From: a methanogenic archaeon mixed culture ISO4-G1
GTDB taxonomy: Archaea > Thermoplasmatota > Thermoplasmata > Methanomassiliicoccales > Methanomethylophilaceae
Direction: 5' to 3'
Assembly (NCBI GenBank): GCA_001563305.1
Contig: CP013703.1
Location: forward strand, 1,475,773 to 1,539,772
Length of the DNA: 64,000 nucleotides
Shown here: piece by piece, positions 22,770 through 45,906 of the stretch
Layout: every line of letters begins with the position of its first letter
Numbering within the stretch: the stretch's first letter is position 1
The notes under the pieces: generated by a model
The model's database searches: none
Seen by the model: the letters and a program-made list of their open reading frames with translations, nothing else
Told to the model about the DNA's origin: nothing
Program-made: the position numbers and the translations under genes

Positions 22770-22846
22770 TGGCGGGCCTGAAGGGATTCGAACCCTTGAC
22801 AGCCTGATTAAAAGTCAGGTACTCTACCTAGCTGAGCTACAGGCCC
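22770..22846 (-). tRNA. tRNA-Lys (anticodon TTT), CCA encoded
   Basis: On the minus strand the acceptor GGGCCTG (from 22846) pairs with CAGGCCC (to 22774). The anticodon arm is CCTGA-CTTTTAA-TCAGG with anticodon TTT, the T arm contains GGTTCGAATCC, and the discriminator is G followed by an encoded CCA (22770-22772). The acceptor and T arms are identical to those of the second tRNA-Lys at 40245. An A/T-rich box with TTATAATAGTATATA lies upstream and is a likely promoter. No intron. Confidence 0.97.
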
Positions 22847-40244: not shown

Positions 40245-40321
40245 GGGCCTGTAGCTCAGCTAGGTGGAGCACTCGACTCTTAATCGAGGTGCCAAGGGTT
40301 CGAATCCCTTCAGGCCCGCCA
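40245..40321 (+). tRNA. tRNA-Lys (anticodon CTT), CCA encoded
   Basis: Acceptor GGGCCTG pairs with CAGGCCC; the anticodon arm CTCGA-CTCTTAA-TCGAG gives anticodon CTT; GGTTCGAATCC forms the T arm; discriminator G is followed by CCA (40319-40321). With the TTT species at 22770 this covers both lysine codons. A promoter-like CCTTTATCTATG box lies about 40 bases upstream. Confidence 0.97.
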
Positions 40322-40613
40322 CTTTATTGCATTAAATTGAGCGCACGGTGCTCGGATTTATTCTGATTCTCGAATGCTCCCATCCGTTCGCGCGCGCAAA
40401 CAGAGTTGATACAGATACAATGAAGATCAGTCTGACCGCTGACCGCAAAGAGCCTTCTTAGAAAGTTGTAAAAAGGGAGGGCACTCTGAAGTGACCTGTC
40501 CAGTCAAGACTTATCGAATAGAGTAGACCGAAGGTTTGTAACGAGACGAAGTACGGATATCGAAGGATGACCGCAGTACGAAGACTGCGTAAGTGGTTTG
40601 AAAGTATTTCGGA
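40322..40613. other. Intergenic region with mobile-looking short repeats
   Basis: No gene is seen. It contains a 27-base segment at 40405-40431 that recurs in inverted orientation at 43189-43216, and a 17-base sequence at 40438-40454 that recurs exactly, in direct orientation, at 43219-43235. The rest is unremarkable. Confidence 0.6.
40405..40454. repeat. Repeat locus A (inverted 27-mer plus direct 17-mer)
   Basis: Positions 40405-40431 (beginning GTTGATACAG) match the reverse complement of 43189-43216 with two differences (one indel, one substitution). Positions 40438-40454 (GCTGACCGCAAAGAGCC) equal 43219-43235 exactly. The two loci bracket the hcp-hxlR-42.6 kb gene group. Confidence 0.7.
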
Positions 40614-42170
40614 TCACTCGATCTTCAGTATGACCCTATCCGCGGCAGGTTCGCTGTTGGCCTTGATACCGAAGTTCTTCACTAGGACGTCGGTGACACC
40701 CGGGGATAGGAATACCGGAAGCCTCGGACCGAGCATGATGTCCTTGACGCCGAGTTTCAGCAGGACCAAGAGTACAAGCACGGCCTTCTGCTCATACCAG
40801 GATATGTTAAACGATAACGGCAATCCGTTGATATCGGTACCAAAGGCTTCGGCCAGAGCGTTGGCGATAACTACGAGGGAGTAGCAATCGTTGCACTGAC
40901 CCGCATCGATGATCCTCGGTATACCTCCGATATCCCCGAGGTCCAGCTTGTTGTATCTATATTTGGCGCATCCTGCGGTGAGAATGACGGTGTCCCTCGG
41001 AAGCTCCTGGGCGAATCTGGTGTAGTAGTCCCTGGACCTCTCCCTTCCGTCGCATCCGGCCATAACCACAAATCTCTTGATGTCCCCAGCCTTGACCGCG
41101 TCGATGATATTTCCTGCCAAGGCAAGGGTCTGATCGTGAGCGAAACCTATGGTAAGGATACGATCATCGATCTCTGCAGGAGCAGGACATCCCTTGGCCA
41201 TGGCAATGACCTCAGAGAAATCCTTCTTGCCGTCCTTCTCGGGGATGTGCTTCACACCTTCGACCCCTGCGGTACCGGTGGTGAACAGCCTCTGTCTGTA
41301 TCCATCCTTCGGGATCAGGACACAGTTGGTGGTCGCTATGATAGGGCCGTTGAACTTCTCGAATTCCTCCTTCTGGAGATACCATGCATTGCCGTAGTTG
41401 CCGACCAAGTTATCATACTTCTTGAAAGCTGGATAGGCGTGGGCGGGGAGCATCTCTCCGTGGGTGTAGACATCGATGCCTGTACCCTTGGTCTGCTCCA
41501 ACAGCTGCTCCAGATCCTTGAGGTCGTGCCCGGTGATCAGAATTCCAGGATTCTTTCCCACCCCGGTCCTCACCTGGGTGATCTCGGGACTACCGTAGTA
41601 CTTCACGTTGTACTCGTCCAGAAGGGCCATGGCCTTCGCACTGACCTCTCCGCATTCCATATTCAACGAGATGAGTTCCTCTACGGACAGATCCTTCTTG
41701 ATCGCCGCCAATGCCTTCCTCATGAATGAGGTGACCGTTGGATCGCCAGCGCCCAGCACATGAGCGTGATGGTAGTAGGCAGCCAATCCCTTCAGACCGA
41801 ACAGGAGGAGTTGCTTCAAGGACTTCAGGTCCTCGTTGGGATCGTAGGTATCGACGGAACAGTCCTCTCCGAATAAGGAGTACTGCTTACCGGCCCTCTT
41901 CATGAACGAATCGCTCAGGGATATGGCATCGTCTATCCTCTGTATGTCGAAATTGGTGTTGGACAGCGTCATGAACAGTGAATCCACAATGTGCTCATCG
42001 ATCTCCTTGATGAATCCTTCGTTCTTACAGTCAGCTGTCGCAGTAGAGATCTCTATCAGAGAAGCGATCAGCTTGTCCATCCTGTCGGCCAATTCCCCGC
42101 TCTTACCGCAGACTCCGTTCCTCAGACATCCCGTACCGGCGATGCTCTCCTCGCATTGCATGCATTTCAT
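40614..42170 (-). CDS. hcp: Hybrid cluster protein (hydroxylamine reductase family)
   Basis: Hcp carries a cubane and a hybrid Fe-S-O cluster and acts in NO/hydroxylamine or redox stress handling. The 518-residue protein starts MKCMQCEESIAGTGC and has the N-terminal cluster cysteines (Cys3, Cys6, Cys15, Cys21). The hybrid-cluster ligands are recognisable in GHDLKDLEQL, ATTNCVLIPK, TAGCAKYRYN and GQCNDCYS. It is divergent from an HxlR regulator. A TATC-N5-GATA dyad in its promoter is shared with the gene at 42633, which suggests joint control. No separate reductase (Hcr) is present. Confidence 0.95.
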   Translation of the reverse strand: MKCMQCEESIAGTGCLRNGVCGKSGELADRMDKLIASLIEISTATADCKNEGFIKEIDEHIVDSLFMTLSNTNFDIQRIDDAISLSDSFMKRAGKQYSLFGEDCSVDTYDPNEDLKSLKQLLLFGLKGLAAYYHHAHVLGAGDPTVTSFMRKALAAIKKDLSVEELISLNMECGEVSAKAMALLDEYNVKYYGSPEITQVRTGVGKNPGILITGHDLKDLEQLLEQTKGTGIDVYTHGEMLPAHAYPAFKKYDNLVGNYGNAWYLQKEEFEKFNGPIIATTNCVLIPKDGYRQRLFTTGTAGVEGVKHIPEKDGKKDFSEVIAMAKGCPAPAEIDDRILTIGFAHDQTLALAGNIIDAVKAGDIKRFVVMAGCDGRERSRDYYTRFAQELPRDTVILTAGCAKYRYNKLDLGDIGGIPRIIDAGQCNDCYSLVVIANALAEAFGTDINGLPLSFNISWYEQKAVLVLLVLLKLGVKDIMLGPRLPVFLSPGVTDVLVKNFGIKANSEPAADRVILKIE

Positions 42171-42183
42171 TTTCTCGAACCTC

Positions 42184-42200
42184 GATATCTTTTTGATATT
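42184..42200. promoter_or_regulatory. Putative HxlR operator in the hcp promoter
   Basis: GATATC-TTTTT-GATATT is a dyad of the form TATC-N5-GATA, lying just downstream of an A/T-rich TATA-like stretch for hcp and 14 bases before its ATG. The same TATC-N5-GATA layout with a T-rich spacer occurs at 42973-42993. Repression by the neighbouring HxlR protein is inferred. Confidence 0.5.
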
Positions 42201-42222
42201 AGATATTAAATAGATACTACAC

Positions 42223-42231
42223 TATATATAT
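42223..42231 (+). promoter_or_regulatory. Putative TATA box for the HxlR regulator
   Basis: TATATATAT lies about 28 bases before the ATG at 42255, the spacing expected for a leaderless archaeal transcript. No ribosome site is seen before the ATG. Confidence 0.45.
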
Positions 42232-42254
42232 CACTAAGTTTCTGACTAGAAAGC

Positions 42255-42611
42255 ATGCACGAAAGTTGCACCGTGTATAACACATTGGACTATCTTTCGA
42301 AGAAATGGGCGATGGTCATCCTGTTCGAGATGAGGAGATCCGGCGATTGGATCAGATTCTCGGATCTTCAGATGAGGATAGCGAACATAACCCCCAAGGT
42401 CCTGACTGAGAGGCTCAAGGAATTAGAACAGGAGGAGCTTATAGAACACAGGATGGATGCATCAGAGGTCCCCATCAAGAGCGAATACCGTCTTACTCCT
42501 GCAGGGTCCGAGCTCACCGACATAATATTAGAGATCAAGATGTGGGCCCTCAAGTGGAAGATCGATAACAAACCGTGTGAGAAGCTCAATTGCTGCAAAT
42601 GCAAGCTGTGA
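42255..42611 (+). CDS. HxlR-family transcriptional regulator with cysteine-rich tail
   Basis: A 118-residue winged-helix protein: LDYLSKKWAMVILFEMRRSG and FSDLQMRIANITPKVLTERLKELE are the HxlR hallmark. It begins MHESCTVYN, with a Cys at position 5 as in many redox-sensing HxlR proteins, and ends CEKLNCCKCKL, an unusual cluster of four cysteines. Control by thiol oxidation, nitrosative stress or metal binding is therefore plausible. It is divergent from hcp and convergent with the small gene at 42633; matching dyads stand before both. Confidence 0.92.
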   Translation: MHESCTVYNTLDYLSKKWAMVILFEMRRSGDWIRFSDLQMRIANITPKVLTERLKELEQEELIEHRMDASEVPIKSEYRLTPAGSELTDIILEIKMWALKWKIDNKPCEKLNCCKCKL

Positions 42612-42632
42612 TGCCTGCAAGCAATAGCCCCA

Positions 42633-42968
42633 TCATTCGTCCTTGACCATATCTATGGTGATGGGTCCGCTCTTGGGATAGATCCTTCTGGAAAGCATTC
42701 CGCATTCCATCCATGCGGCCTGATAGACCATTATGGGTGCCACACATATCATGGACATATTCCCGCGGACCTCTTCCTTGTTGATGTTGCTGGTCTCGAA
42801 GTTCAAAATATCGTCCATGGTGACGGAGGTCAGATTCTCTGCGAACCCCTGAAGTGCATCGCAATCCGATTCCACCTTGATCCCTATGGTACCGTCCTCC
42901 CTCTGATCGGCGGTCACTCTGATGTACTTGTCGCAAATGCTCATTTTGGTCTCTATAGTGGATGACAT
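42633..42968 (-). CDS. Small cysteine-containing protein of unknown function
   Basis: Not recognised. The 111-residue product (MSSTIETKMSICDKYIRVTA) is not membrane-bound and contains four cysteines (in SICDKY, SDCDAL, MICVAP and MECGML). The ATG 42968 lies just inside a 21-base dyad, and a TATA-like GCTATATA before it suggests a leaderless transcript; an ATG at 42974 inside the dyad is less likely. The shared dyad with hcp points to a role in the same stress response. Confidence 0.7.
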   Translation of the reverse strand: MSSTIETKMSICDKYIRVTADQREDGTIGIKVESDCDALQGFAENLTSVTMDDILNFETSNINKEEVRGNMSMICVAPIMVYQAAWMECGMLSRRIYPKSGPITIDMVKDE

Positions 42969-42972
42969 ACAC

Positions 42973-42993
42973 ATACTATCTATTTGATAGTAT
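42973..42993. promoter_or_regulatory. 21-bp perfect dyad before the 42.6 kb gene
   Basis: ATACTATC-TATTT-GATAGTAT: 8-base arms at 42973-42980 and 42986-42993 with a 5-base spacer. It lies between the likely TATA box and the start codon, where an archaeal repressor would block transcription. The inner part TATC-N5-GATA is shared with the hcp promoter. Confidence 0.6.
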
Positions 42994-43380
42994 ATAGCGT
43001 GGCACTTTCCAGATGGTAACTGTGCGAACGGTTCAGTTCAGTTCGTACATATTATCTACTCACGCTCAACTTAATAGAACCAGAAAATGCCTGTATTCCT
43101 CAGTTTGTGCCATGAGCCCGGCCGTGTCTGCATAATGTTTGACTCTGATCTTGGATAGAGTCGGATATATGACCGGTCAGCGGATAGAACTGATGCTTCA
43201 TTGTACCTGTATCAACTCGCTGACCGCAAAGAGCCAAATGGTTAAAACAATTAGGAAATCAAGAAACCTTGAAAACTCCCAAAAACGGGTGAGTCTACCA
43301 TGCGGGTTCCTTCAGGCCCTCCAATTCTTGCCCTTATTGATCTGTGTTTTCTTCATACGATTCTTATCGATCGAGGTTCA
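42994..43380. other. Non-coding region with repeat locus B
   Basis: No supported gene. It holds repeat locus B (43174-43235). The short open frames here have no family signal. Confidence 0.6.
43174..43235. repeat. Repeat locus B flanked by 9-bp inverted repeats
   Basis: CGGTCAGCG (43174-43182) and CGCTGACCG (43218-43226) are perfect inverted copies flanking a segment whose core (43189-43216) is the reverse complement of 40405-40431. The adjoining 17-mer at 43219-43235 is in direct orientation relative to 40438-40454. Confidence 0.7.
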
Positions 43381-43451
43381 TTAATTGTGAAAAATCCATT
43401 TTCCGCAATTAACAAAAATTTTAATTGCACAAACGCTGTTTTCTGCAATTA
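43381..43451. repeat. Two tandem TTAATTG-N16-GCAATTA dyads before fic
   Basis: Arms at 43381-43388 and 43405-43412, then 43421-43428 and 43445-43451, each pair separated by exactly 16 bases and repeating with a 40-base period. The last arm overlaps the fic start codon. A third copy with the same spacing lies after the gene at 44597-44628. Probably an operator; possibly autoregulatory. Confidence 0.65.
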
Positions 43452-44593
43452 TGAAGGAAGAGAATTACCACCCGGTGATATCCGGCCAAATCAGGTACTC
43501 CGATAACGGTGAATTCAGTTATTTCTGGCCGAACGATCTTCCCTTCGACTTAGAATTCGATAAAAGGATCTACAAGAAAATAGAGACCGCGATAATCACA
43601 TTGTCAAAACTCGACGGCAAAGTATCCCAGATGACGGAACAGGAAAGGAACATCCTCCTTGTCCCGTTCGTCCTCATGGAATCCACGGAATCCTCCGCGA
43701 TCGAGGGCACTGGCACGACTATGGAGGACATCTACAGGTCGGAAAGGGTGGAAGAGACGGACCCGCGCAAACTGATGGACAATCTGGAAGTCCTGAACTA
43801 CCGGAATGCGCTGAATCATGCGACCTCTATGAATGGCGACACCATCGATGAGGATCTCTTACTGGAACTCCACAGGATTCTCATGAAGGGCGTGCGTGGA
43901 GAGAACAAGAATCCGGGAACCTACCGTTCAGTCCAGGTGCTTGTGGGCAACAGAGGAGACACACTGGAGAGCGCCAGATTCGTTCCCATGCCCCCCGAAC
44001 AGGTACCCTGGAAGATCAGGAATCTCTTCGAATACATCAATTCGCCGGACGAGAACACCCTGATCTCCGCCGCACTCTCCCATTACCAGTTCGAGACGAT
44101 CCACCCGTTCACGGACGGGAACGGAAGGATGGGAAGACTGCTTATCATGCTCATCCTCAGCAAGAGCGGCATCCTGGAACACCCGGTACTGTATCTCAGC
44201 GGGTATTTCAACAACAGACGTGAGGAATATATAGAGAGGCTGAACAGGGTCAGGGAGGAGGACGATTTCCGTGGCTGGATTGATATGTTCCTCGATGCCC
44301 TGATAGAACAGTCCCAGAGTTCCATAAGGATGATCGATTCATTGTTCCAGCTGAGGCAGAGATTCCATTCAATGGACACCGACAGGCATACATTGCAGCT
44401 TCTCGATTCGCTGTTCGTCAATCCGTTCGTAAGGAAGGCGGACGTTGCCGATATCTGCAATGTTCATCTTTCTACCGCAGGAAAGATCGTGAACGATCTG
44501 GTCGATGCTGGCATCCTGTCAGAGACAACGGGCAAGAGAAGAAATCAGTTGTTCGTATGCAGAGAGATCATGAATGTTCTCAATTCTTACTGA
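43451..44593 (+). CDS. Fic-domain protein with inhibitory helix and C-terminal winged helix
   Basis: Fic proteins usually transfer AMP to target hydroxyls. The 380-residue protein has the active motif HPFTDGNGRMGR (residues 218-229) and an upstream SSAIEG inhibitory motif (81-86), as in self-inhibited class II Fic enzymes. The C-terminus (about 315-375) looks like a winged helix (RKADVADICNVHLSTAGKIVNDL), so the protein may bind DNA. Dyads of identical geometry stand before and after the gene, overlapping the start. No antitoxin gene adjoins. Start ATG 43451; base composition of the flanks is more A/T-rich than the surroundings. Confidence 0.92.
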   Translation: MKEENYHPVISGQIRYSDNGEFSYFWPNDLPFDLEFDKRIYKKIETAIITLSKLDGKVSQMTEQERNILLVPFVLMESTESSAIEGTGTTMEDIYRSERVEETDPRKLMDNLEVLNYRNALNHATSMNGDTIDEDLLLELHRILMKGVRGENKNPGTYRSVQVLVGNRGDTLESARFVPMPPEQVPWKIRNLFEYINSPDENTLISAALSHYQFETIHPFTDGNGRMGRLLIMLILSKSGILEHPVLYLSGYFNNRREEYIERLNRVREEDDFRGWIDMFLDALIEQSQSSIRMIDSLFQLRQRFHSMDTDRHTLQLLDSLFVNPFVRKADVADICNVHLSTAGKIVNDLVDAGILSETTGKRRNQLFVCREIMNVLNSY

Positions 44594-44596
44594 GTG

Positions 44597-44628
44597 TTAA
44601 TTGCGAAATATCGTTTTTACGCAATTAT
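44597..44628. repeat. Third TTAATTGC-N16-GCAATTAT dyad after fic
   Basis: Arms 44597-44604 and 44621-44628 with the same 16-base spacing as the two dyads before fic. Further half-sites (ATAATTGC at 44637-44644, GCAAT at 44651) follow. The remaining sequence to 44833 shows no supported gene. Confidence 0.6.
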
Positions 44629-44833
44629 CATAATCTATAATTGCGTGAACGCAATCAGTGAACATGATGACCCCATTCCAACGAGTGTCTGGCAGTTGGG
44701 ATAGTTAGAATAGTTAACTAAATCCAAAACCCAAAACAACCACGAAAACGATGCAGCTGATCAGATATCACGGGACCAAGAACTATCCGAGATGACGGTC
44801 CTTTCCGGTAAGAGGGCCGAATATCTCAACGAA

Positions 44834-45865
44834 TCACGGACGACTGAACTGGCGCCTGATCCACAACACCGCCCTATAGAATATGTCCAAAATGGTGAAT
44901 GATGAATCCCACACATCATCTGGCTTCCCGTTTTCGTAAGGGACCCGGTCTATGCCTGATGCCCCCTCACGCTCGGCTATAGCGGTGATCAGCCCTATCT
45001 CGTATCCCTCCTGGGCCCTAATGTGCCTATTCATGGTGCGAATTACAAAGAAGAACAAGAATGTAAAGTACAGCCCCACGATCATAATCACCGGAGATTG
45101 CTGGGGTAAAGTGATGCCTTCACCATCCAGATAAATCACCAGATAGTACTGGATAAGATAAAGGACCACGGCCGTGATGATGAATACCGCCTGATATGAG
45201 AGCCTGTGGGCACCTATGCCTGAATCCATCGGTTCAGCGATCCTCTCGTCCCCCATCACACGGACGAATTCCTCCGTGAATCTGCTCTGAATGTCATCAA
45301 CCCTGTAGATCTTGATCAGCGCAAAGACCACGGTGGCACTGAGGTCGAACATAGCAATGACCAGCACGACCTTTTCGGGAATCTCGAAAGGATTCCCGTC
45401 GGAGACGTAACCGGTCATATCGAACACGAAGAAACTGAGTATCATCATTAGGAACATGGCGAGAAAAGCAAGATAGGAGACGAGCCTGGCTCTGTTGAGG
45501 ACCTGCTCCGTCATCTCGTCCGAGATCGGTCTCAGCCGTGAGACGTCCTTCCCTTCGTGGTCGGCATAATCCGACAGGGAACCGATCCATTCTGCATCAC
45601 GGCTCAGGTGCAGCGTGAGCGACTTCATCATGGTGTATGCGATGAATGAGACATCCATGCACATGAACAATGCCACGAGATATTCTCCGGCTTCTGACAG
45701 TTCGAGCCAAATCCCATAATCAGAATACATCCGGTAGAACAGGTAGAACAGGAATCCCAGCGAACCCGGGATTATCAGGAGCATAATCGGCCAGCTGAGA
45801 AATATATCCTTCTTGGAACGCTGAAGAACACAGTCCAGGAATCTGTCCGCTGCCGGATCGCCCAT
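44834..45865 (-). CDS. Multi-pass membrane protein of unknown function
   Basis: Not recognised. The 343-residue protein has about six hydrophobic helices (near 25-45, 62-82, 130-155, 165-188, 225-247 and 257-278) and soluble loops, with a C-terminal cytoplasmic part. The ATG 45865 (MGDPAADRFLD) is used; an in-frame TTG 9 bases upstream is less likely. It is divergent from another small membrane protein at 45907 with 41 bases between, so the two may be functionally linked. Confidence 0.75.
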   Translation of the reverse strand: MGDPAADRFLDCVLQRSKKDIFLSWPIMLLIIPGSLGFLFYLFYRMYSDYGIWLELSEAGEYLVALFMCMDVSFIAYTMMKSLTLHLSRDAEWIGSLSDYADHEGKDVSRLRPISDEMTEQVLNRARLVSYLAFLAMFLMMILSFFVFDMTGYVSDGNPFEIPEKVVLVIAMFDLSATVVFALIKIYRVDDIQSRFTEEFVRVMGDERIAEPMDSGIGAHRLSYQAVFIITAVVLYLIQYYLVIYLDGEGITLPQQSPVIMIVGLYFTFLFFFVIRTMNRHIRAQEGYEIGLITAIAEREGASGIDRVPYENGKPDDVWDSSFTILDIFYRAVLWIRRQFSRP

Positions 45866-45906
45866 GTCTTGCAATATTTTTTATCGTTAATAACGTTGCT
45901 CGAGCG

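Follow-up and report, generated by a model that had tools for sequence, protein, structure and literature searches.

In the genome of a methanogenic archaeon of the Methanomethylophilaceae, a fic gene lies between dyads of identical 16-base spacing, two in front of its start codon and one behind its stop codon. We asked what reads these dyads and why they stand on both sides of the gene. The window, that is, the whole 64,000-nucleotide stretch that was analyzed, belongs to a genome of 1.59 Mb in one contig. We consider it likely, from sequence comparison, that a SoFic-like Fic protein represses its own gene and that fic is gained or lost through the operator blocks flanking it.

The fic gene and its flanking dyads

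The initial annotation placed TTAATTG(C/T)-N16-GCAATTA twice before the gene, 40 bases apart and with the last arm overlapping the ATG, and once after the stop. All three dyads are present exactly as described, without mismatch, on the + strand at 43381-43411, 43421-43451, and 44597-44627. The first and the second are offset by 40 bases, the latter reaching to the A of the ATG (43451), and the third begins 3 bases past the stop codon (44591-44593). With up to two mismatches allowed on both strands of the window the same three dyads alone matched, each on both strands, against 0.07 matches expected from shuffled sequences. Across the whole genome, TAATTG-N18-CAATTA with at most one mismatch occurred only at these three dyads, and a slightly longer dyad pattern with two mismatches was found at four places versus one for a backward control. 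The extra half-sites claimed behind the third dyad were also seen (ATAATTGC at 44637, then GAACGCAATC). The N16 pattern was exact on the + strand and was refined to an even-centered unit of 32 bp (TTA...TAA) within a directly repeated block of ~56-76 bp. The two blocks of the window, which we call operator blocks, form a direct repeat (56 bp at 77% identity) flanking fic. The features of the locus are as follows.

40245..40321, + strand: tRNA-Lys(CTT), a likely integration hot spot
43309..43323, + strand: att-like remnant that matches the tRNA-Lys 3' end over 15 bases with 1 mismatch and precedes dyad 1 by 57 bases
43377..43450, + strand: putative upstream operator block of dyad 1, linker, and dyad 2 (block model, 64.0 bits)
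43381..43412, no strand: upstream dyad 1, 32 bp, TTAATTGT...GCAATTAA (pattern scan)
43421..43452, no strand: upstream dyad 2, overlapping the ATG and starting 40 bp after the start of dyad 1 (pattern scan)
43451..44593, + strand: SoFic-like Fic gene, 380 aa, with Fic_N, Fic, and a C-terminal winged helix (profile, structure matches, AlphaFold2 model)
43691..43708, + strand: N-terminal putative inhibitory motif SSAIEG, residues 81-86 (sequence)
44102..44137, + strand: Fic motif HPFTDGNGRMGR, residues 218-229 (sequence; largely invariant in the alignment)
44468..44506, + strand: codons of the predicted recognition helix, residues 340-352, LSTAGKIVNDLVD (DSSP on the model; co-variation at Ser-341)
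44596..44669, + strand: putative downstream operator block, with a second site at 44637-44658 (block model, 63.9 bits)
44597..44628, no strand: downstream dyad 3, 32 bp (pattern scan)

The left arm of dyad 2, ~25-30 bp before the ATG, would coincide with the position at which leaderless archaeal genes have their TATA box. An Rfam search returned no family matching the dyads. Between the blocks fic stands alone, with no integrase or transposase, and the Pfam domains of seven neighboring proteins include neither.

The fic product scored 81.9 bits with Pfam Fic and 61.5 bits with Fic_N. Residues 218-226 read HPFTDGNGR, in agreement with the catalytic motif HPFx(D/E)GN(G/K)R of SoFic-like Fic proteins. 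Its N-terminal SSAIEG, in which Ser-81 and Glu-85 are invariant and Gly-86 is conserved in at least 90% of the alignment, is what we take to be the inhibitory motif under the definition (S/T)xxxE(G/N), and places the protein in class II. The PADLOC SoFic profile matched at 336 bits; this match is the single pointer to an anti-phage role, which the protein may have. The score with Pfam SoFic-like_C was 24.1 bits against a gathering score of 27, and that with the NCBIfam SoFic equivalog NF046030 was 150.4 bits against a cut-off of 550. Both scores lie under their thresholds, although the fold is present in the structural model, and the protein is filed as SoFic-like and as neither a SoFic-like_C member nor an NF046030 equivalog. 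The AlphaFold2 model (mean pLDDT 94.5) predicts a C-terminal winged helix with high confidence, bearing out the winged-helix-like domain read from the sequence in the initial annotation, and contains a recognition helix at residues 340-352 together with a wing. Foldseek searches with the model gave Fic proteins as the top fold matches, SoFic included (TMq 0.76-0.79), and solved Fic proteins were also matched by sequence. Among named organisms, a Candidatus Methanomethylophilaceae archaeon and other Thermoplasmata hold its nearest relatives, in keeping with an origin of the window in that archaeal family.

Dyad geometry and predicted half-site recognition across the family

SoFic-like loci with an upstream dyad of 32-bp outer length span bacteria, archaea, and viral contigs. 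Eighty loci of distant relatives were fetched, giving 77 upstream and 79 downstream flanks, of which 27 and 11, respectively, hold inverted repeats at p ≤ 0.01; many of the downstream repeats of bacterial relatives resemble terminators. A scan for outer length with 8-bp perfect arms peaked at 32, which was found in 32 of 92 upstream flanks where 1.0 was expected. The concentric even lengths 22-30 were raised too (16-30 loci), and the odd lengths 19-33 gave 1-8. This set was made without L034-L036 (copies of L008, L011, and L014) and without L116 and L117 (a duplicate and a broken copy). A dyad of this outer length lies upstream of fic in 25 of 73 cases, versus 5 of 172 for other genes in the same loci. 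In a viral-contig set that was not used to form hypotheses (80 loci fetched, 79 with an upstream flank, 68 non-redundant), the peak was again at 32 (14/68; 0.5 expected), with odd lengths 27 and 33 raised too.

The distance to a second dyad is likewise restricted. Among 46 dyad loci it was 39-42 bp in 15 instances (0.04 expected) and 49-53 bp in seven (0.06 expected) and was never 20-38 bp; the viral-contig set gave four at 39-42 bp (0.00 expected) and two at 49-53 bp (0.04 expected). The 40-bp dyad pair of the window is therefore one case of a family spacing rule. Pairs phased in this way suggest cooperative binding along a single face of the DNA.

What speaks most for a reading of the dyads by Fic itself is the co-variation of half-site and recognition helix. 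At 23 loci with TTATTT half-sites, the residue at the position of Ser-341 is Asn with CA (13/13), Ser with TG (5/5, one of these loci also having a CG half), Ala with TA (4/4), and Pro with TC (one locus), counts that include related loci. On a tree of the Fic part alone, drawn without support values, Ser/TG and Ala/TA each appear in two separate places, and parsimony requires four residue and five half-site changes. Half-sites of the window's kind, TTGC/TGCA, accompany (S/A)T(A/V)x(R/K) at nine of nine usable loci versus two of 36 others, in a list read by eye; the group includes a Fic protein from Fibrobacteres that is 38% identical to that of the window and has the half-site CTTAATTGCA. Mantel correlation over 45 loci was r = 0.37, and r = 0.23 in a partial test given Fic-domain identity (both p = 0.0005); the link is nearly gone for pairs below 45% identity (r = 0.09). 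Below the dyad threshold for these comparisons were 46 of the 92 loci of the first set and 46 of the 68 viral-contig loci, and L009 was excluded from the counts, its protein being frameshifted and misaligned. Together, family dyad geometry, phased tandem sites, and half-site/helix co-variation strongly support the autoregulation that the initial annotation proposed.

Operator blocks with and without fic

A Fic protein of at least 50% identity is encoded in eight of 102 family genomes: the window's own, G051 (81%), G005, G009, G022, G001, G012, and G021. The initial annotation had looked to orthologs to decide its case, and they answered it in part. The upstream dyad is present at all eight loci, the window included (degenerate in G009 and imperfect in G001); the downstream copy is present at five (window, G051, G009, G001, and G021) and missing at three. 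In G021 the arms differ (TTAACG type) and are of identical type on both sides of fic. DNA similarity among the close loci starts at the dyad block, mostly 69-75 bases 5' of the ATG, and stops near the stop codon. Behind fic the block recurs as a direct repeat in G009 (76 bp, 72%), G001 (70 bp, 96%), G021 (70 bp, 79%), and G051 (49 bp, 73%). Such operator direct repeats (72-96% identity) occur at five of 21 near loci, all among the eight closest, and at none of 151 more distant loci; direct repeats at the distant loci L057, L064, and L090 were found on inspection not to be operator dyads. When 60 relatives were searched for the dyad pattern, chance matches predominated in some genomes, where the backward control gave high counts as well. 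Besides the close fic homologs, few open reading frames match among nine loci compared, at 20-45% identity, and the idea that the orthologs share no neighbors was softened accordingly. In G012 a tRNA-Gly gene lies ~25 bases behind fic on the opposite strand (L162, 2822-2896).

Blocks also occur where fic does not. A block model built from 14 copies and run on the 102 family genomes found strong copies in 15 of them (17 counting two weak matches left out of the count, G044 with E = 3.5e-5 and G128 with E = 0.001). Of 20 strong copies, 10 lie by a whole or frameshifted fic, three by a truncated fic (G017, G029, and G137), and seven are solo (G024, G029, G138, G105, G108, G110, and G002). In the solo block of G029 (L193, 2359-2434), which has no fic in its vicinity, most of both dyads is preserved.

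Three solo blocks sit at sites comparable with an occupied locus. G105 and G051 are syntenic, and the G105 site is a hybrid of the two G051 blocks: on the left it has the flank of the G051 upstream block, its block is 98% identical to the G051 downstream block, and its right flank holds a stretch at 75% to G051 beyond an inserted segment. In G002 a single block lies between both flanks of G001, at 81% over 2.8 kb on one side and, on the other, at ~72% (102 bases) and 80% (416 bases). G110 combines the right flank of G051 with a single block. Given these one-block sites, fic has probably been lost or gained by recombination between its operator blocks. A candidate fic remnant beside the G002 block was rejected; the weak tblastn matches there (best E = 0.005) overlap a short repeat that flanks the block left and right. 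For the window's own locus, an empty site was not found among the other 30 same-genus genomes because none of them encodes a relative of the right neighbor (44834-45874) that exceeds 43% identity over its length.

In downstream and solo blocks the arms of dyad 1 have a mean identity of 0.92 versus 0.67 for the other columns (permutation p = 0.0001). This is suggestive of continued function of these blocks and is to be read as such, since the solo blocks were found by a model that favors arms.

An intact tRNA-Lys(CTT) precedes the block by 61 bases in G110 and by 63 bases in G137. Near the block of G029 and of G051 there is a copy of the tRNA-Lys 3' end, 18 bases long and 55 bases away in G029, 15 bases long and 64 bases away in G051. 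Several genomes thus have the cassette in an accessory region associated with a tRNA, ~60 bp behind tRNA-Lys(CTT) itself or behind a copy of the 3' end of that gene. In the window, the ~3 kb from tRNA-Lys(CTT) to the near-copy of its 3' end (40322-43323) encode a Prismane/hybrid-cluster protein, an HxlR regulator, and a DUF6951 protein. Positions 40459-43039 are 98% identical (~2.4 kb with one gap) to part of G105, which belongs to another genus, and the hybrid-cluster segment was thus probably transferred recently. The window has two tRNA-Lys genes in opposite orientation (TTT, 22770-22846; CTT, 40245-40321), with the last 25 bases in common. A ~62-bp repeat (84%) is shared by the window behind the downstream block (44687-44747) and L157 (8578-8639) upstream of the G051 fic, there belonging to a 564-bp element with two copies.

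Competing explanations and known systems

The mechanism that we favor is as follows. The SoFic-like AMPylating enzyme would repress its own gene, a Fic dimer binding the 32-bp dyad through the C-terminal winged helix, and two dimers on helically phased dyads would lie over both the start codon and the likely promoter. A direct repeat of the operator block follows fic in this archaeal clade, and the locus would thus form a compact block-fic-block cassette, from which recombination between the two blocks would remove fic, leaving one block, or, in reverse, insert it.

The downstream block admits other readings. It might be a passive leftover of a tandem duplication of fic whose second copy has since been lost, as its direct orientation and its end near the start-codon position would suggest; in G009 the upstream and downstream copies even align beyond the start codon (76 bp, 72%). 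Yet no second fic remnant was visible by eye behind downstream blocks, and these retain their arms while inner positions vary (the solo copies again coming from the arm-favoring model), and we regard a leftover as somewhat unlikely. The initial annotation suggested a loop between the two sides of the gene, which would add to autorepression a ~1.2-kb repression loop with Fic dimers bridging the blocks. Matching arms on both sides at five loci, the shared altered arms of G021, and a mean identity of 0.875 in downstream arms versus 0.61 in the inner spacer agree with this idea, but homogenization of direct repeats explains shared arms equally well, and neither the three close orthologs lacking a downstream block nor the 151 distant loci have the repeat that a loop would use. 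A loop is accordingly doubtful, more so than a leftover.

Readings in which Fic does not bind the dyads fare worse. Binding by Fic is here a prediction, so that another regulator might occupy the dyads; half-sites that track the recognition helix of Fic across phyla, and dyads unique to this locus in the genome, make this very improbable. Nor do we give much credence to RNA hairpins or terminators, the least probable reading of all. The dyads can be drawn as stems, and the terminator-like repeats downstream of many bacterial relatives would fit, but at many loci symmetry is limited to the outer arms with a less symmetric center, the sites are phased by approximate helical turns, and Rfam has no match.

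Sofic is a single-protein phage-defense system whose control is poorly understood. If autorepression with block-mediated gain or loss of fic is correct, the 32-bp site, the 40/51-bp phasing, and the residue-to-base code would predict the operators of many SoFic-like genes from sequence, and the duplicated operator would offer a concrete route for precise loss or gain of a costly toxin-like gene, with scars that can be counted in genomes. A bolder extension, which we think improbable, is that the block serves as both repression site and attachment-like site: a self-silencing single-gene defense cassette would move in and out of the tRNA-Lys hot spot via its own operators, and solo blocks would be landing sites at which occupancy by Fic from a new copy would control both expression and exchange.

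In the literature searched, with subscription papers and preprints mostly outside it, no description was found of SoFic operators, a residue-base code, or a direct-repeat operator cassette. SoFic (PMC12249575; PDB 3eqx and 3zcn) and the window Fic have the same domain order and the same fold; no operator is described for SoFic in the passages compared, whereas the window locus carries dyads, and DNA binding by SoFic had not been shown according to PMC10628234. The latter source, in which the motif TSAIEG, similar to SSAIEG, appears, describes CbFic2 of Coxiella burnetii, a class II Fic that binds DNA via a C-terminal winged helix. The window Fic shares the class and the winged helix, its DNA binding being predicted; CbFic2 was studied with random DNA and has no specific site known there. 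RptR (PMC12255303) resembles the window locus in that a defense locus is silenced on repeated palindromes by a repressor that it encodes, but differs in its separate regulator gene and 6-bp palindromes, and no direct-repeat cassette is described for it in the passages compared.

CccR of Yersinia pseudotuberculosis (PMC9755527) is, like the window Fic, a class II Fic with a C-terminal helix-turn-helix and an inverted repeat at its own promoter, which it represses through that repeat; it needs to dimerize for DNA binding and is secreted by the T6SS. Its footprint, 10-N26-10 (46 nt), differs from the 32-bp dyad of the window, which does not have the CccR geometry, and a downstream block like that of the window is not described in the passages compared. 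The window Fic thus lies outside the CccR subfamily, and we predict from the co-variation that it works like CccR, by autorepression. CccR is the direct precedent for dyad-based self-repression by a Fic protein.
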